64,000 nt of DNA from Candidatus Acetothermia bacterium (lineage in GTDB: Bacteria; Bipolaricaulota; Bipolaricaulia; RBG-16-55-9; JANLFV01), in the NCBI GenBank assembly GCA_024653345.1, contig JANLFV010000006.1:17061-81060 (forward strand), given 5' to 3'. Position 1 is the stretch's first letter. Each line of letters starts with the position of its first letter. The position numbers were made by a program, and so were the translations under genes. Shown here piece by piece: positions 29,966 to 38,797 of the stretch. The notes beneath the pieces were generated by a model. It was not told the DNA's origin and did no database searches. It saw only the letters and a program-made list of their open reading frames with translations.

Positions 29966-29994
29966 TTGCGCCTTCACCGCACTTGGGCTACACT
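29966..29994 (+). promoter_or_regulatory. Possible promoter for the sbcD-sbcC-nurA-herA operon
   Basis: TTGCGC (29966-29971), 17-base spacer, TACACT (29989-29994), ten bases before the sbcD ATG. The match is moderate. If used, the leader would be only about four bases. Confidence 0.45.
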
Positions 29995-30004
29995 TCATTT
30001 TGAA

Positions 30005-31054
30005 ATGAGCGAGATCCTCCATCTGGCCGATACCCACATCGGGACGAGGCAATACGGCCTGGCGGAGCGGCGGGCCGACTTCTCCGCGGCCTTCCTCCAG
30101 GCGGTCGAGCTGGCCATCGCCGAGCAAGTCCGGGCGGTGGTCCACGCGGGGGACCTCTTCGACAGCCGGAATCCCTCGACCGAGGACCTCCGCGATGCCC
30201 TCTCGGGCTTGCTCCGCCTCCGCGAGGCGGGGGTCCCCTTCCTCGGCATCGTCGGAAACCATGAGCAGAAGAGAGGTGTCCAGTGGCTCGACCTCTTCGC
30301 CGCCCTCGGCCTGGCCGTCCACCTCGGCCCGGAGCCCTATCCTCTCGAGGGGACTCGGATCTACGGTCTGGACTACTCCGGGCGGAGGGAACTCGAGCTG
30401 CCGCGCCTCTCGGGAGGCGTGCTCGTGGCCCATCAGTTGCTCGACCGGATCGCCACGGTCTCCGGGGAGCTGAAGTCCGCCCAGCTCCTGGACTGCGGGG
30501 CCGAGCTCATCCTCTTGGGAGACTACCACGAGCACCAGAGCTGGCTCGAGCGGGGGGTCCTCATCACCTATCCCGGCTCGACGGAGCGCTGGCGGGCGAG
30601 CGAGCGGTCACCGCGGGGGGTGAGCCTGATCGACCTCGAGACGAAGCGGCTGACCCGAAGGAACCTCCAGACGCGGCCGTTCGTCTACATCGAGGCCGAT
30701 GAAGACCCGCTCCGGCGGCTCAAGGGCGAAGAGGTCCGTGGCGCCGTAGTCTGCGTCTATCGCGGCGCGGGCTGGAAGCCGGAAGAGATCGAAGAGGAGG
30801 CCCGAAGCCGGGGGGCACTCGCGGTCCAATTCCTCGAACCGGGCCCGGCTGCGCCCTTAGCGGAGGAGGTAGAGCTGAGCGGGGCGCAGCTGGAGTTCCT
30901 CGACCTGGAGGAGACGCTCGCCCAGGAGTTGGCCCGTCTGGGGCTCTCGCGGGAAGGGCAGGAGATCGAGGCGATCATCCGTGATGAGCGGATCCCGGAC
31001 TCCAATGTGGACGCCGAGGTGACCAGGCTCTTGGAGAGCTGGCAGGGGCGATGA
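30005..31054 (+). CDS. sbcD: Mre11/SbcD-type double-strand-break nuclease subunit
   Basis: The 349-residue metallophosphoesterase partner of Rad50/SbcC. Phosphoesterase motifs are HLADTHIGTRQYGL (motif I, residues 6-19), VVHAGDLFDSRNPS (II), GIVGNHEQKRG (III), and later LGDYHEHQ. The C-terminal cap region is short, as in archaeal-type Mre11. It has an active exo/endonuclease role at DNA ends with sbcC. Its stop overlaps the sbcC ATG (ATGA). First gene of a four-gene resection operon. Confidence 0.95.
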   Translation: MSEILHLADTHIGTRQYGLAERRADFSAAFLQAVELAIAEQVRAVVHAGDLFDSRNPSTEDLRDALSGLLRLREAGVPFLGIVGNHEQKRGVQWLDLFAALGLAVHLGPEPYPLEGTRIYGLDYSGRRELELPRLSGGVLVAHQLLDRIATVSGELKSAQLLDCGAELILLGDYHEHQSWLERGVLITYPGSTERWRASERSPRGVSLIDLETKRLTRRNLQTRPFVYIEADEDPLRRLKGEEVRGAVVCVYRGAGWKPEEIEEEARSRGALAVQFLEPGPAAPLAEEVELSGAQLEFLDLEETLAQELARLGLSREGQEIEAIIRDERIPDSNVDAEVTRLLESWQGR

Positions 31055-33816
31055 ACGAGCTAGAGGGCCGACTGCTCGACCTCTGGAGCAAGCAGGCTGC
31101 GGAAGAGGAGAGGGCGCTCAGGCCAGCGAGCGGGGGGATCCAACTCCTCCGGCTCGAGGTGGAGAACGTCTTCTGCTACCAGCGGGCGGAGGTGGAGTTC
31201 GAGCCGGGCCTGGCGGTCATCGCGGGGCCGAACGGCTCGGGGAAGTCCTCCCTGCTTGAGTCGATCTTCTTCGCGCTCTACGGGAGCCGCGCCTGCCCGG
31301 CGATGGGCCGCTCCCTGGCCGAGGTGCTGCGCGACGGTGCGCGGCAGGGCCGGGTCTCGCTCCACTTCCTCTGCTCCGGGCAGCGGTGGAAAAGCGAGAT
31401 GGGCCTGAAGCGCCAGGGGGAGCGGGTCACGAGCGAGCGCGAGAGCTGCCGGCTCCTCCGCGAGGACGGGATGGAGTGGCTGGGCGTGGAGGAGGTCACG
31501 GCTCAAGTCCAGGAGTTGCTCCACATGGACCGGGACGACTTCACCAACGCGGTCTATGTCCGGCAGGGGGAGATCGACCGTCTGATCCGGGCCGGGGAGG
31601 AGGAGCGGCGGGGGATGCTCGACCGGCTTCTCCGGCTCGAGCGGCTCGATAGCTATGCCACCCGGGCGAAGGAGGGAGCGGCACGGGCGGTCAACCGCCG
31701 GCTGGCAGTCCTCCAAGGCGAGCTGGCCGGCCTGAGGCGAGAGTTGGCCGCCCTGGAGGAGGAAGGGCTCGCCCGGGCCTGGGCCGCGCTCGAACGGGAG
31801 GTCCAGCAGAAGGAGGCAGTGCTGGCGGGCCTGGAGGCGGAGCGTGGACGCCTTGAGGAGGGCCGTGCCAGCCTCCGCGAGCGCCTTCGTCGGCTTGCCT
31901 CGGCGGCCAAGGAACTCCAGGAACTCGAGCTCGAACGGGAGGAGAAGCTCAGACGGACCAAGGCTCAGGAGGGGGAACTGGAGCGGCTCCGTCTCCTTCT
32001 CACCGGCCTCCAGGCCCAAGAGGAGGAGCAACGTGCCCAGCTTCAGGATTGGCTCAAGGCGTTCCCCGATTATCAGATCTTCCGCCTCCCGGAGCTGGAG
32101 GAGCGCCTGGAGCAAGCTCTAACTGAGAGCCGGGGCGAGCTGGAAAAGCTAAGAGCCGAGGTCCAGGCCCGCCGGGAGCGGCTGGCCCGGCTCGAGGCCG
32201 AGCTGGGCCATCTGCAGAAGGAGATGGAAGGCCTTGACTCCAAGGCTTATGAGCTGCGGACCGAGCTGGCAGCCGCTCGGGAACTAGCTCAGGCGAGCGA
32301 GCAGGAGCTGATGCGCTTTCAGAGCGGCCTGACGGAGATCGAGGCTAAGGCGGAGGCTCTCGCCTCGCGGGTGGGGGTCCAGCCGCTCGCTGGCGAGCCG
32401 CTCCACGCCCGGCAGGCAGCCCATCTCGAGCGGCGCGAGCGGGCCCGCGAGCAAGCAGAGCGGTTGCGCGCGGAGCTGGTCGCGGCCCGGACGCAGCGCG
32501 CGGAACTGGAGCGCGAACTGGCGGAGAAGGAGGGGCTGATCGAGGCCGGCCGCTGCCCCACCTGCGGCCAGCCGATCGCCGCGGCGACCTTCGCCGATGT
32601 CCTTGCCGAACTGCGCCAGGAGCGCCAGCGCCTGGAGGAAGCCGCTGCCGGGCTCGAAGAAGAGATCGGGAGCGTGGAGAGCCAGCTTCTGGCTCTTGAA
32701 GAGGAGCGGAAGGTGCTGGACCGGCTGGCCGTGCTGGCTGTGGAATTCCAGGCGAAGCGGGAGCAGCTCGAAGACAAGCGCCAGGGCCTCCGCAGATTCG
32801 AGGAGCAGTGCCGGGCCCTGGAGGAGCGGCTTGCCCAGGCAGAAGAGGAGCTCAAGGCGCGCGAGAGGGGCCTCGTGGCGAAGGGCAAGGAGCGCGCAGC
32901 CCTGACGGCCGAAGTTGAAGAGCTCTCGCGGCGCCTCAATCTCGCGGAGGAGGGGCAGGCCCGCCTGGAGAGGCTGGCGAAGTTGAGCAGTGAGCTGCTG
33001 AGGACGCTGGCCAGGCTCGAGGAGGCCGAGGGACGGAAGCAGGCCCTCCTCGAGAGCCTGGGCAGTCTGCGGGAGGACTTGGCCCGACTCGACCGGAAGG
33101 GCTCGCAGCTCCGGCTCGAGCTGGGCGAGCGGGCCAAGCTCGAGCAGGACGAGGCCCACCTCCTGGCAGCTCTGAAGGAGCTGGAGGCGCGAAGGGCAGC
33201 GCTCCAGCGCGAACACGCCGCGCTCCTCGATCGGCGGGGCCAGCTCGCGGGGAAGCTGGAGCGGTTGAAGCACCTCCAGGCCGAGGAGCAACGGCTGGCC
33301 GGGGAGGTCGGGCGGCTGACCGAGCTCGCCGAAGAGGTGGCCCGCTTGGAGGGGCTCTACCGGCAAGTGAAGGGAGAACTGCGCAAGCGGAATGTGGCCG
33401 CGATCGCCCGCCAGTTCGACCATCTCTTCCGCCTCATGGATGCCGGGGACAACTACAGCCGCGCGCTCATCGATGAGGGCTACCGGATCGAGATCGAGCT
33501 GAAGGATGGCCGCCGGATCGACCCCACTATCATGTCCGGCGGCGAGCGGGCGTTGATCAACATCGCCTTGAGGTGCGCGATCCACCAGGTCCTGGCGCGC
33601 GCGGTCGGACCGCTCCCGCTGATCCTAGATGAGCCGACGATCTACCTCGACCGCGAGCGGATTCAGCGGCTCCAGCTCCTGCTGGAAGAGCTGGGAGCCC
33701 AGCTCGGCCAGGTGCTCGTCGTCTCCCACGAGGAGAGCCTGGTCGAGGGCGCCGACCACGAGTATCGGACGGAGAAGGGGCCGGCCAACATCTCGACCGT
33801 GAGGAGGGTGAGGTAG
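31051..33816 (+). CDS. sbcC: Rad50/SbcC-type SMC ATPase
   Basis: A 921-residue SMC-like ATPase that tethers and unwinds DNA ends with Mre11/SbcD. The N-terminal Walker A is AGPNGSGKSSLLES (residues 58-71). Two long Glu/Arg/Leu-rich coiled coils flank a zinc hook CPTC (C502, C505). The C-terminal signature MSGGERALINIALR (about 828) and Walker B PLILDEPTIYLD (about 855) complete the head. The order and spacing are those of Rad50. It is followed by nurA after two bases. Confidence 0.96.
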   Translation: MNELEGRLLDLWSKQAAEEERALRPASGGIQLLRLEVENVFCYQRAEVEFEPGLAVIAGPNGSGKSSLLESIFFALYGSRACPAMGRSLAEVLRDGARQGRVSLHFLCSGQRWKSEMGLKRQGERVTSERESCRLLREDGMEWLGVEEVTAQVQELLHMDRDDFTNAVYVRQGEIDRLIRAGEEERRGMLDRLLRLERLDSYATRAKEGAARAVNRRLAVLQGELAGLRRELAALEEEGLARAWAALEREVQQKEAVLAGLEAERGRLEEGRASLRERLRRLASAAKELQELELEREEKLRRTKAQEGELERLRLLLTGLQAQEEEQRAQLQDWLKAFPDYQIFRLPELEERLEQALTESRGELEKLRAEVQARRERLARLEAELGHLQKEMEGLDSKAYELRTELAAARELAQASEQELMRFQSGLTEIEAKAEALASRVGVQPLAGEPLHARQAAHLERRERAREQAERLRAELVAARTQRAELERELAEKEGLIEAGRCPTCGQPIAAATFADVLAELRQERQRLEEAAAGLEEEIGSVESQLLALEEERKVLDRLAVLAVEFQAKREQLEDKRQGLRRFEEQCRALEERLAQAEEELKARERGLVAKGKERAALTAEVEELSRRLNLAEEGQARLERLAKLSSELLRTLARLEEAEGRKQALLESLGSLREDLARLDRKGSQLRLELGERAKLEQDEAHLLAALKELEARRAALQREHAALLDRRGQLAGKLERLKHLQAEEQRLAGEVGRLTELAEEVARLEGLYRQVKGELRKRNVAAIARQFDHLFRLMDAGDNYSRALIDEGYRIEIELKDGRRIDPTIMSGGERALINIALRCAIHQVLARAVGPLPLILDEPTIYLDRERIQRLQLLLEELGAQLGQVLVVSHEESLVEGADHEYRTEKGPANISTVRRVR

Positions 33817-33818
33817 AT

Positions 33819-35048
33819 TTGCTCTCCCCGGATGTCAAGCAGAGGTTAAGAGAAGGGATCGAGGAGTTCGCCCTCCCGTTCGACCTGGGGAGGTGGGGTG
33901 AACAGGCGCGGGAGGCGTTTACCAATCTCGAGCCTGACGGGGCCGTCCAGGCCCTCACCCCGCCGAGCTACGCCAGCCGCTCGATCGTCGAGCTCGCCTC
34001 ATGCGAGAGCCCGTTCAAGCGGACCTTCGGGCTCGACGGGGGCTCGACCCGGCCGATCCACTTCGCGAATGGGACGACACTGTGCGCCAATCAGGCCGTG
34101 ATGGTGAGCGAGCCGCCGCTAGAGTTGGAGGGGCTTCCGCTCGAGGCGTTCCGAACTGTGGCCCTGGTCACCCAGTCCTTCGCCCCGAGCGGCGGCCCGC
34201 GGGCCGCTTACCTCGAGGAGGGTCTTCTGGGGATCTGGCGAATCCACCTCACCAGGGACTACCTCCGGGGCGAGATCGACCATGTCCTGAAGGGCCTGGC
34301 CGACGCCGCTAGCGAGGCCCGCCACGCCCTCCGGCTGGCCGAGCATCTGAACTTGGGCCGGGATGACATGCTGTTCCTCGACGGGAATGTCTTCCCGATC
34401 GGCCTCTACTATCTAGTAGGCGCACGCCGCTCGCCGGAGGTTGACCTCACGGCCTTCCCTGGCGCGACGCGGGCCCTGGCCCAGCACCTCCGCCTCGCGG
34501 AAACCATGGTCGAGCGCGGGGCGACCTATGCCGGGATCAACAAGACCCCTCAGACAAGCTACCTCCTCGGCTGCCTCCCCGAGGAGGGGCCCTGGGCCGA
34601 CGATCGCCAGCTGATCCGGGCCGTCTTCCACGACCTCCCCAAGGCCGAGCTCGGCTGGACTAACTGGTTCCTCCAGGTCCGGTATCGCCTCCCTGCCCCA
34701 GACCGCGGGGCGAGCGACCTCTTCCGCCAGGTCCCCTTCTTCAAGCTGGAGCTTCCCCCAGAGGACTACGCTATCGCTTACTTCTTCGTCTCCGATCCGC
34801 GGACGGCCGGCGGAGCGGGAAGCGTCCTCAAAGTCGAGGTCCCGTGGGCGATCCTCGAGAGGCATGAGCCAGAGAAGCTGCAGCGGGTGATCCTAGCCGA
34901 GATCGCGCGAGGCGCGGCTGTCCCGAATGTGATCCGGCGGGCCGACAGCCGGGCCAGAATCACCCAAGAGGAGCGGGAGGCTTTCATCAGGGGGAGCGGC
35001 CTCCCGCCGGACCTGGGGTATAATCAGGGCCGTGGCGAGCCGTGGTGA
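33819..35048 (+). CDS. nurA: NurA-family 5'-3' nuclease
   Basis: A 409-residue protein with the NurA nuclease signature GLDGGSTRPIHFANG near residue 70 (metal-binding aspartate) and a C-terminal conserved region with VLKVEVPWAILE and RADSRARITQEER. NurA works with the HerA translocase to resect DNA ends in archaea. Translation starts with TTG, two bases after the sbcC stop; there is no in-frame ATG nearby. The stop overlaps the herA GTG. Direct adjacency to Mre11-Rad50 and HerA supports the assignment. Confidence 0.88.
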   Translation: MLSPDVKQRLREGIEEFALPFDLGRWGEQAREAFTNLEPDGAVQALTPPSYASRSIVELASCESPFKRTFGLDGGSTRPIHFANGTTLCANQAVMVSEPPLELEGLPLEAFRTVALVTQSFAPSGGPRAAYLEEGLLGIWRIHLTRDYLRGEIDHVLKGLADAASEARHALRLAEHLNLGRDDMLFLDGNVFPIGLYYLVGARRSPEVDLTAFPGATRALAQHLRLAETMVERGATYAGINKTPQTSYLLGCLPEEGPWADDRQLIRAVFHDLPKAELGWTNWFLQVRYRLPAPDRGASDLFRQVPFFKLELPPEDYAIAYFFVSDPRTAGGAGSVLKVEVPWAILERHEPEKLQRVILAEIARGAAVPNVIRRADSRARITQEEREAFIRGSGLPPDLGYNQGRGEPW

Positions 35049-36772
35049 ACGGTGAGATGAGCGAGAGCGAGTTCGACCTGGAGAAGGAGCTGGGGCTGGA
35101 GTTGGGGCGGCCGGCCAAGCCCGAGCTCGGACTGGGAGAGGACGAGCTCGGGCGGATCGCCATCTCGAGCGAGCTCTCCCTCAGCCTCACCGAGGCCAAG
35201 ATCGAGATGTATGTCCCCGAGAGCCGGCGGGACCGCGTGGCCGTGGGGGAGTATGTGGTCATCCCTTGCGATTATGCCGGGGGTAAGATCTTCGCCCGAA
35301 TCAAGCGCCTCTCCTACAGGAAGAGGGACGCGCTCGACGACATGAGCGAGGTCCACCTCCTGGTCGGGGCGGAGCGGGTCGGGGAAGAGGAGTATATCGA
35401 GCTGGCGGAGCTCGAGCCGCTCTCGATGATCGTCCAGGGCAAGGCCCTCGAGGTCCGCCACATCCCCAAGCCGAACACGCTCGTCCGCCGGGTCGCGAGC
35501 GAGGACGAGGTCAAGGTCGGACTCGACCTCCCGGAGGACGGCCTCTTCCTCGGCTATGTGGCGGTCAACGGCGAGCCGATCAGGCTCGCAAGCGGCCTCC
35601 CGATCCCTTACTACCTCCGGAACGACCCGGAGAGGATCGGGGATCCCCTGATCTTCACCCACACCCTGATCGCGGGGATGAGCGGCCGGGGGAAGACCCA
35701 TGTGGCCAAGAACTTCTTGAGACAGGTCGTCGGCTCGCGCTACCGGATGGAGCGGCGGGGCGGGGAGGAGCGCGAGGTGAACCTCGTGATCCTCGACCCG
35801 CACAACGAATACTGGCAGATGATGGAAGATAACCCGGTCCTGGCGAGCCTCCCCGCTAAGGAGCTGGACACCCTCCGCGGCCAGGGGGTGAAGTTCGGAG
35901 GAGTCAAGACGGTGAGGGTCTTCGTGGCCAAGGAGGAGGGGAGGCGCTACCAGGGCGCCCCGAAGTATCTGGAGTTCACGATCCCCTTCGCGCTCGTTCG
36001 CCAGTTCCCCTACCTGATCGCCGGCGGGGAGGTGAATGAGGAGCAGTTCGGGGCCCTCGTCCTCTTGGTCCGGGACTTCTTCGCTGCCGGAGGCGAGCGC
36101 TACCAGGAGTTCAAGGAGTTCCTCGAGGCCGCGACTGCCGAGGAGCGCTACAAGGCCGGGCTGATCCACTCTGAGACCCTCAAGGCCCTGAAGCGGCGGG
36201 TCCTCCGGCCCTACTTTGAGAAGGTCTTCGACCAGGGGGCCAACCCGCTCGACCAGCTCTATGAGGAGATCTTCGCCGAGGGGGCGGTGAGCGTCTTCCC
36301 TACGGAGCACCTGAGCCCGGAGGCCGAGCGGGTCGTGGTCCTCGCGATCATGTCGATGGTCGCGGACGCCAAGACCGAGGCGGTCGAGTCCGAATGGGCC
36401 AAGCGGATCGCCCGGTTCCCCGTGGTCCTGGTGGTCGATGAGGCCCACAACTACCTCACGAACGCCGCGACCCAGCAGGACCGGATCATCGTGGAGAAGT
36501 TCGTGGCCGCGGCCAAGCAGGGGCGGAAGAACCGGCTCGGGCTGGTCCTGATCACCCAGAACCCCCAGGATGTGAACGAGGCCGTCCTCTCTCAGGTGAG
36601 CACGAGGCTCCTCTTGGGGATGGAGGCGGGATTGGCCGAGCGGGCCGGCGCGCCGAAGGAGTATCAGAAGGCCCTGCCATACTTCGAGCGGGGAAGGATG
36701 GTTGTCCACTCCCCGGAGAACAGCCACCCCCTGGAGCTCCGCGGGCTGGACTCCTGCCTCGTCCAGCACTGA
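35042..36772 (+). CDS. herA: HerA-family hexameric DNA translocase
   Basis: A 576-residue FtsK/HerA-type ATPase. The N-terminal HAS-barrel-like domain runs to about residue 190. Walker A is AGMSGRGKTHVAKNF (about residues 212-226), Walker B is VVLVVDEAHNYL (about 460-471), and sensor and arginine-finger segments follow (LGLVLITQNPQDV). HerA pumps DNA into the NurA nuclease. The start is uncertain between GTG 35042, GTG 35045 (GTGA overlap with nurA) and ATG 35057. Last gene of the operon. Confidence 0.92.
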   Translation: MVNGEMSESEFDLEKELGLELGRPAKPELGLGEDELGRIAISSELSLSLTEAKIEMYVPESRRDRVAVGEYVVIPCDYAGGKIFARIKRLSYRKRDALDDMSEVHLLVGAERVGEEEYIELAELEPLSMIVQGKALEVRHIPKPNTLVRRVASEDEVKVGLDLPEDGLFLGYVAVNGEPIRLASGLPIPYYLRNDPERIGDPLIFTHTLIAGMSGRGKTHVAKNFLRQVVGSRYRMERRGGEEREVNLVILDPHNEYWQMMEDNPVLASLPAKELDTLRGQGVKFGGVKTVRVFVAKEEGRRYQGAPKYLEFTIPFALVRQFPYLIAGGEVNEEQFGALVLLVRDFFAAGGERYQEFKEFLEAATAEERYKAGLIHSETLKALKRRVLRPYFEKVFDQGANPLDQLYEEIFAEGAVSVFPTEHLSPEAERVVVLAIMSMVADAKTEAVESEWAKRIARFPVVLVVDEAHNYLTNAATQQDRIIVEKFVAAAKQGRKNRLGLVLITQNPQDVNEAVLSQVSTRLLLGMEAGLAERAGAPKEYQKALPYFERGRMVVHSPENSHPLELRGLDSCLVQH

Positions 36773-36775
36773 GGA

Positions 36776-36804
36776 TTGACTCCGGCCAAGTTCCGTGCTA
36801 TAGT
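36776..36804 (+). promoter_or_regulatory. Promoter for the S55 protease gene
   Basis: TTGACT (36776-36781), 17-base spacer, TATAGT (36799-36804), starting four bases after the herA stop codon. The leader is about 73 bases. Confidence 0.8.
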
Positions 36805-36883: not shown

Positions 36884-38797
36884 ATGAGCAGAAGGAAGCT
36901 CATTTTCCGGTTAGGTCTAGTCGCTCTAGTTGCGGTTATCCTCACCACGGCCCTCACCGGCGGCGGGCGCGATCGCGGGCAGTTCATGTTCTCGGAAGAA
37001 CTCCAGCCGGGGATGACGGGGTTCTGCAAGACCGCGGTGAACGGGAATCAAATCGTGACTTTCAACTTCACGATCGTCGACATTCTGAGGACGGCCTATG
37101 TGGGGCTCGACCCGCGGGCGGAGGAATACAAGATCACGATCCTGGCCCGCGCGGAAGAGGGCTTCTGGACTGCAGCGGGGATGAGCGGGAGCCCCTGCTA
37201 CATCGATGACAAGCTGATTGGCGCTTTATTCGCCAGCTACTCCTGGGACACACCGCTCACCGAGCCGGGGAAGCCCTTCCTAATCCAGCCGATCGAGGCG
37301 ATGCTCCCGGTCCTCGACGCCTGCCTGAGCAGGGTGAGCGCGCCGGCCAGTGGCTCAAGCAGCGCCTCAGCGCAGTTGGGTCCTGTGGGTCGAACCATTC
37401 AGGCGGTCAGCCTGACGGGGAAGACCGAGATTGAGCGGATCAAGGTCGTCGCTCGCCCTCCTGCCCCCGAGGAACTGGAAGCCCACCCGCGCACGCTCTT
37501 CGTCCAGTATCTCGCGACACCGGTCGCGGTGAGCGGCCTCTCGGGCAGGGCCTACCGCTGGTTGAAGGAGGGCATGGACGCCGAAGTCGGCGGGAGCGTG
37601 CTTCGCTACCTCCGCGGTGAGCGGGCCTTCCAGAGCTTCCTCTCCTCCCTTAGACAGGGCCTGGAAGAGCGGTATGATGTCGAGCTCTACAACTTCAGAG
37701 CGGGCGGGCAGGTCCAGGGGGTCGATCCCGGTCCGCTCGTCCCCGGCGCACCCGTGGGAAGCGCGATCATGCTCGGCGACTTCACCTACGGCGGCTACGG
37801 GACAGTCACCTACGTCGAGGACCAGTGCCTCATCGCCTATGGGCACCCCGACTTCTTCCTCGGGGAGACTGATCTATTCATGACCTCCATCTACATCACT
37901 GACTTGGTCCGCAGCATTCAGCGCCCCTTCAAGGAGGGCTACATTGTGGGCGAGGTTGGGAGCCTCCTCGAGGACAGACTGCACGCGATCGCCGGTGCGA
38001 TCGGCAGACCGACTACAGCGATCCAGCTCAATCTCACCGTCACAGACAGGGACTCCGGGATCACGAACACTTTCACGACCAAGTCGGTGGCCCTGCCAGA
38101 GTGGTATCCCGACAACCTCCTCTGGGCTGGCCTGGAGGCGGTGGACCGGACGTTGAACCGGGTGGGGCGAGGGACCTTGAACATGCATCTGACCATCAGG
38201 GGAGCCGCGGGCGAGAAGCTCCTGGAGCGGCGCGATATCTATGTGAGCAACTACGACATCTCCGAGGCGGGAACCTTCGATCCGGCCTGGATCTCTTATC
38301 TCCTGGCCTGGAACGAGTTCGCCGACCCTCAGATCAGCGCGATCGACCTCGAGATGACCGTCGAGAGGAACCTCCGCGTCAAGGTGATCGAGTCGGTCGA
38401 GCCGGCGAGCCAGTCCGTGAGCCGCGGCGGGACCCTCCGCTATAACCTCAAGCTCCAGCCCTATCGCGGGGCCCAGGAGACGATCACCGGCTCGCTCAAG
38501 ATACCTGACTGGGCAAACCAGGATGACGTGGTCTACCTCGAGGCCTTTCCCGCGAACTGGGCCTTCTGGAAGTTCGAGATGCAGGCCCCCTGGGCTCGGC
38601 CTTACTTCCTCTGGGACACGATCCTGGACCTCGACGGCCTGATCGAGGCGATCCAAGGGGCCTGGACGAATGACGCCGTGCTGGTCGTGGCCTGGTCCTC
38701 CACAACGGGAAGGGCATACGCCATCGACATCAAGTCCGTCGGCGACTTCTTCGTCGACGGCGATCGGGAGTCGGAGAAGGTCGCTCAGGTCCGGTAG
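36884..38797 (+). CDS. Secreted SpoIVB-type (peptidase S55) serine protease-like protein
   Basis: A 637-residue protein with an N-terminal signal or anchor (KLIFRLGLVALVAVILTTAL) and an S55 peptidase domain. Signatures are LQPGMTGFCKTAVNGNQIVTFNFTIVD near residue 45 and the catalytic serine motif GMSGSPCYIDDKLIGALF near residue 103. In Bacillus SpoIVB cuts SpoIVFA to activate sigmaK, but sporulation genes are not seen here. The C-terminal 400 residues are probably beta-rich and unassigned. AAGGAGGT precedes the ATG. Role is unknown; an envelope protease is likely. Confidence 0.75.
   Translation: MSRRKLIFRLGLVALVAVILTTALTGGGRDRGQFMFSEELQPGMTGFCKTAVNGNQIVTFNFTIVDILRTAYVGLDPRAEEYKITILARAEEGFWTAAGMSGSPCYIDDKLIGALFASYSWDTPLTEPGKPFLIQPIEAMLPVLDACLSRVSAPASGSSSASAQLGPVGRTIQAVSLTGKTEIERIKVVARPPAPEELEAHPRTLFVQYLATPVAVSGLSGRAYRWLKEGMDAEVGGSVLRYLRGERAFQSFLSSLRQGLEERYDVELYNFRAGGQVQGVDPGPLVPGAPVGSAIMLGDFTYGGYGTVTYVEDQCLIAYGHPDFFLGETDLFMTSIYITDLVRSIQRPFKEGYIVGEVGSLLEDRLHAIAGAIGRPTTAIQLNLTVTDRDSGITNTFTTKSVALPEWYPDNLLWAGLEAVDRTLNRVGRGTLNMHLTIRGAAGEKLLERRDIYVSNYDISEAGTFDPAWISYLLAWNEFADPQISAIDLEMTVERNLRVKVIESVEPASQSVSRGGTLRYNLKLQPYRGAQETITGSLKIPDWANQDDVVYLEAFPANWAFWKFEMQAPWARPYFLWDTILDLDGLIEAIQGAWTNDAVLVVAWSSTTGRAYAIDIKSVGDFFVDGDRESEKVAQVR

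Follow-up and report, generated by a model that had tools for sequence, protein, structure and literature searches.

Gene layout of the locus

Four open reading frames on the forward strand lie closely packed at positions 30005-36772 of the window, the 64,000-nucleotide stretch of DNA analysed here. They are mre11, rad50, nurA and herA, and all of the key motifs of the four families are intact in them, as the original prediction had read them. The source genome is placed in the Bipolaricaulota, in the order of RBG_16_55_9 (below, "the order"). The features of the locus are as follows.

29989..29994, + strand: TACACT, a weak -10-like element shortly before mre11, read from the sequence
30005..31054, + strand: mre11, 349 aa, haloarchaeal-type; Mre11_Halo 247 bits over the full length, SbcD 59 bits; tree
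30521..30523, + strand: codon of Mre11 Asp173, replacing the metal-site His, which is His206 in P. furiosus
31051..33816, + strand: rad50, 921 aa, haloarchaeal-type; PRK02224 450 bits, Rad50_Halo 415, SbcC 76; tree
32554..32565, + strand: Rad50 CPTC zinc hook, from a motif search
33819..35048, + strand: nurA, 409 aa, TTG start, divergent subfamily; Pfam 22.7 bits, fold match, invariant residues
35057..36772, + strand: herA, likely ATG start; DUF87 and HerA_C above cut-off; alignment
36776..36804, + strand: sigma-70-like promoter, 10/12 matches; 0.3 per region expected by chance

The mre11 and rad50 genes overlap by 4 nt in an ATGA, and rad50 and nurA are separated by 2 nt. An alternative herA start, GTG 35042, would overlap nurA by 7, but the homologue from the same genus aligns from 35057 onward, which makes ATG 35057, with a gap of 8, the more likely start. 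Upstream of mre11 is a rimI-like acetyltransferase gene. Inspection of the sequence found no clear ribosome-binding site at the mre11 start, and the promoter scan did not pick up TACACT at 29989..29994; the mre11 message is possibly near-leaderless. The sigma-70-like promoter that comes next after herA suggests that the operon ends there. Beyond herA is a gene (36884-38797) for a 637-aa protein that matches nothing in Pfam or NCBIfam and whose gene has a promoter-like site of its own; at first impression this protein is a SpoIVB/S55-like candidate.

Family assignment of the four proteins

The Mre11 motifs DTH, GDLF, GNHE, AHQ and GDYHEH were all located, and the calcineurin-like nuclease domain (Metallophos, PF00149) scores 37.9 bits. 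Against the bacterial SbcD model TIGR00619 the protein scores 59 bits, under the cut-off of 78, and it is thus not assigned to SbcD. Rad50 has a split ABC ATPase, a long coiled coil and a CXXC zinc hook, with Walker A, CPTC, SGGER signature and Walker B motifs and SMC_N/AAA_23 in the family search. The haloarchaeal models outscore those for SbcC and SbcD by far along the full length of both proteins, although neither protein reaches the cut-off of the haloarchaeal equivalog (247 of 550 bits for Mre11, NF041030; 415 of 1000 bits for Rad50, NF041035). Haloarchaeal Mre11 proteins from plasmid four-gene cassettes also score under the NF041030 cut-off, at 269-299 bits. The equivalogs are thus the nearest relatives of the bacterial pair, which are not members of them. 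The next best models for Rad50 are other archaeal Rad50s (Pyrococcus-type, 207 bits) and not SbcC (76 bits).

The Mre11 of the window does not have the metal-site histidine, carrying Asp173 in its place like all of the haloarchaeal Mre11s examined. In our alignment, Asp occupies this site in 14 of 14 rows from the order and 7 of 7 haloarchaeal rows, and His in both archaeal PDB rows and 28 of 29 other rows, the exception found being L223. Asp173 therefore looks like a variant of a Mre11 subfamily and not a ground for exclusion from Mre11. As a discrete marker common to the order and the haloarchaea, it poses a clear biochemical question.

NurA is the weakest of the four calls by sequence. Its Pfam score of 22.7 bits is barely above the cut-off of 21, and a genome-wide search with the Pfam NurA model missed this gene. 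PDB sequence searches gave no NurA match, returning nothing or chance matches to repeat proteins, and we therefore judged its identity by fold. The structure was predicted with AlphaFold2 from 14 homologues (mean pLDDT 87.8), and the best PDB matches of the predicted structure are solved NurA proteins, those from Thermococcus, Sulfolobus and Pyrococcus at Z 16-18 and those from Thermotoga and Deinococcus at Z 12.6-13.3. This match of the model confirms the protein as NurA, with a predicted RNase H-like fold. The original prediction had named the NurA-specific residues as the point at which an alignment might overturn it. The acidic core holds: D73, E166, D188 and D376 are invariant across the order and the haloarchaea and are placed in the model where the catalytic acids of an RNase H-like enzyme are expected, so that they are the putative catalytic acids. 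The fourth acid of this core is Asp, at a position where Sulfolobus NurA presumably has His.

HerA carries the motifs GMSGRGKTH (Walker A) and VVDEAH (Walker B), and both of its domains score over their cut-offs (DUF87, PF01935, 42.4 bits; HerA_C, PF05872, 24.5 bits).

Kinship with haloarchaea and distribution in the phylum

In a phylogenetic tree of Mre11, the order forms one clade (100/99), and a second node of 100/99 unites it with seven haloarchaeal proteins. Bacterial SbcD branches far away from this group, as does the Mre11 of Bipolaricaulota family f8, a family with a different Mre11-Rad50. The Rad50 tree, made without five bacterial rows, has the order at 96/98 and the order, the haloarchaea and one long-branch row together at 93/88, a lower support than in the Mre11 tree. 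In the HerA tree, the order and the haloarchaea are split from other bacterial HerA at 100/100, one row labelled as bacterial (L041) being a member of the order that falls inside it. A NurA profile of the order and the haloarchaea gives other bacterial NurA at most 25 bits. The archaeal sampling behind these comparisons is thin: two sequences with solved structures and seven loci on haloarchaeal plasmids. The original description of the operon as archaeal-type has thus been borne out for Mre11, Rad50 and HerA, whose trees place them outside ordinary bacterial SbcCD and HerA, and can be narrowed to haloarchaeal-type.

A tblastn search against plasmids found four haloarchaeal megaplasmids with mre11, rad50, nurA and herA in the identical order; these four records, all from plasmids, are the only ones of the four-gene form that we found in haloarchaea.

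L072, 6149-13707: haloarchaeal megaplasmid cassette
L073, 6105-13701: haloarchaeal megaplasmid cassette
L074, 6058-13720: haloarchaeal megaplasmid cassette (Natrinema)
L076, 11992-21085: haloarchaeal megaplasmid cassette (Natribaculum)

The cassettes come from Halocatena salina (NZ_CP096020), Haloferax alexandrinus (pBNX82-4), Natrinema sp. SYSU A 869 and Natribaculum breve and have the same genes, order and near-zero spacing as the bacterial operon. Homology extends along all four proteins, and their Mre11s have Asp at the His206 site. They differ from the bacterial set in sequence (Mre11 and HerA about 30-36% identity, NurA 26-28%) and in the length of Rad50, about 1,090-1,100 aa on the plasmids versus 921 aa here; herA is split in Natrinema and Natribaculum. 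Whereas the haloarchaeal cassettes are plasmid-borne and sporadic, the set occurs throughout the bacterial order. Some of the plasmid cassettes are near integrase, transposase or Orc1/Cdc6 genes.

These plasmids bear on the published absence of HerA-NurA, stated for Haloferax volcanii in one review (PMC7776575) and, in another, for halophilic archaea, where the pair is said not to be apparent (PMC12977600). The annotation of Natrinema altunense is likewise at odds with a halophile-wide absence (PMC9995536). The four plasmids with the full set qualify both statements and, together with that annotation, contradict the general one that haloarchaea lack HerA-NurA. The H. volcanii genome, which we used as a control, scores over the cut-off with the Pfam NurA model, although a review says that the species lacks NurA.

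Within the Bipolaricaulota, 17 of the 19 genomes of the order encode NurA of this kind, as against none of the 81 genomes from elsewhere in the phylum. The corresponding HerA also spans the order: full-length copies within the order score at least 860 bits with the HerA profile, and nothing outside the order in 389 sampled bacterial genomes scores above 72. A profile scan of genome contigs with the NurA alignment matched only Bipolaricaulota, its patterns being too specific to reach archaea. The linkage of all four genes is retained in several families of the order, but herA sits elsewhere in most of family f4 and other members lie apart in two genomes (G005 and G002), so a single transcript is not essential for the gene set. 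The genes flanking the cassette are not conserved among relatives. In one of these (G008, L025 10339-13700), mre11 and rad50 are separated by genes for a DprA protein and for a RecQ-like helicase whose tail resembles a phosphoribosyltransferase.

Chance and binning error are ruled out, as the same genes turn up together in some 17 independent MAGs from the order and the contig with the operon also carries bacterial-type tmRNA, RNase P and PcrA. Contamination or a recent acquisition is ruled out as well: GC, GC3 and gene context are native and the relatives agree.

AddAB, possible function and origin

The feature is real and well conserved, and is more specific than in the first reading: it appears to be an end-resection operon of haloarchaeal type, standard in one order without detectable AddAB. 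The original prediction had proposed a search for recB and addA, and neither AddA nor AddB/RecB was found in the source genome. The PDDEXK_1 nuclease domain of RecB/AddB had no match in this MAG (about 92% complete) or in any of the 13 genomes from families f1, f2 and f4. In families f3 and f5 the matches score weakly or are short (listed lengths 240 and 281 aa), and most genomes of f6, f7 and f9 have PDDEXK_1 proteins of about 1,000 aa. Among the chosen families for which the source genome was searched, there was no AddA-like UvrD_C protein, PcrA being the only full-length UvrD-type helicase found. Since proteins of AddB/RecB size are absent throughout the order and present in most other Bipolaricaulota families, the HerA-NurA operon has likely replaced AddAB in the order. 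Lack of AddAB is not confined to genomes with HerA-NurA, because three genomes outside the order (G029, G081 and G089) also have no PDDEXK_1 match.

The same prediction had proposed a search for recJ. RecJ was found in the source genome, as was RecR, and HerA-NurA is therefore not a substitute for RecJ. HerA of Deinococcus radiodurans is reported to stimulate RecJ (PMC12977600). Bipolaricaulota family f7 was found without a full-length RecJ, yet nearly all of its genomes have AddB-like proteins.

The four proteins would act together on double-strand ends. Rad50, through its ATPase and zinc hook, and Mre11 would recognise and open broken or blocked ends; a HerA hexamer would pump duplex DNA into a NurA dimer, which would degrade the duplex and leave a 3' single strand onto which RecFOR proteins would load RecA. 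RecJ would be available in parallel to this resection and would also feed RecFOR-RecA. The operon would hold the role that AddAB has in most other Bipolaricaulota. AddAB and RecBCD, with presumably the same cellular role at double-strand ends, are unrelated protein families.

We consider it probable that the locus is a complete haloarchaeal-type Mre11-Rad50-NurA-HerA end-resection operon, anciently exchanged, kept across the order and filling the AddAB role. The exchange would have involved the ancestor of the order on one side and the haloarchaeal stem, or near relatives of it, on the other, and the order would then have retained the operon throughout. As the original prediction suggested, such a transfer would be old, since GC and GC3 are native and the set is order-wide. 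Its other proposal, a thermophilic way of life, is not needed as an explanation, because the closest relatives are haloarchaeal and some MAGs of the order come from groundwater and sediment. Bipolaricaulia and Halobacteriales occur together in hypersaline sediment (PMC11287216) and a MAG of this order is abundant in a geothermal brine pool (PMC9992828), making contact between the two groups plausible. More tentatively, somewhat short of an even chance in our estimation, the whole resection pathway may have crossed domains as one cassette and displaced AddAB in the order's ancestor, with the His-to-Asp Mre11 defining an enzyme class of its own, shared by haloarchaea and Bipolaricaulota, in which metal use or strand preference may have changed.

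Because the order and the haloarchaea are sister groups, the Mre11 and Rad50 trees fit a transfer in either direction. The order or its kin could have been the source, and an ancestor of the haloarchaea the recipient, of Mre11-Rad50, whether or not NurA-HerA came along; the haloarchaea are known to have acquired a large number of bacterial genes (PMC7599335), and their four-gene form, found in four records and on plasmids alone, would suit this direction. The second-best matches of Rad50 are archaeal, fitting an archaeal root, and we regard this reversal as rather unlikely. Descent without transfer, from an old gene set that most bacteria have since lost, could account for the scatter of HerA, NurA and Mre11-Rad50 families among many bacteria, but it would require very many losses, and the specific closeness to haloarchaea, including the active-site substitution, and the different Mre11-Rad50 of f8 make it quite improbable. 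That ordinary bacterial SbcCD and HerA merely resemble archaeal proteins here is scarcely credible: motifs alone cannot separate the two types, but the trees and profile scores exclude it.

The cassette might also serve mainly in defence against phages and plasmids. HerA is partnered with nucleases in anti-phage systems (PMC12977600), the haloarchaeal copies are plasmid-borne, and there are partial matches to the PADLOC models for HerA and LmuB. NurA and Mre11 have no PADLOC match, however, and the order-wide conservation in single copy, the rad50-nurA linkage, the coincident lack of AddB/RecB and the DprA and RecQ-like neighbours in one relative all suggest housekeeping recombination, so that a defensive role seems improbable. 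Viral contigs scanned with HerA, NurA and Mre11 did not contain the cassette, yielding one weak HerA, no NurA and 13 Mre11s, the best of which groups with M. jannaschii.

The operon can be compared with systems already described. HerA-NurA and Mre11-Rad50 of Sulfolobus, Pyrococcus and Thermococcus comprise the same four families with the same operon linkage (PMC2288612, PMC12977600), but sequence identity to the proteins here is low and their Mre11 retains the metal-site His. HerA-NurA is present in Deinococcus-Thermus (PMC9960219), sometimes beside SbcCD (PMC5448004, PMC9960219). Four such genes together in a bacterium are not in themselves new, because Oceanithermus has previously been reported to have nurA-hepA-sbcD-sbcC as a linked set (PMC5448004). 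These bacterial systems belong to other subfamilies, with another gene order, SbcCD of bacterial type and the weaker of the NurA fold matches. The same kind of cluster as in Oceanithermus, a tandem bacterial-type nurA-herA-sbcD-sbcC, occurs in another phylum (G332; L229, C1:2894170 onward). Swaps of core recombination machinery between domains are rare, and an order with the archaeal-type kit and without the bacterial machine that most sister families retain makes both the exchange and its consequences testable.

Two further observations concern other gene sets. A genome of the order (G002) has a second, divergent NurA-like and HerA-like pair (C15:26599-28307) besides the main cassette. Two small bacterial genomes of one family (G257 and G109; L184, L186) have a Mre11 that clusters with that of Methanocaldococcus (99/97) and so appears to be a separate instance of archaeal-type Mre11 in bacteria; their HerA and NurA matches are at other loci.
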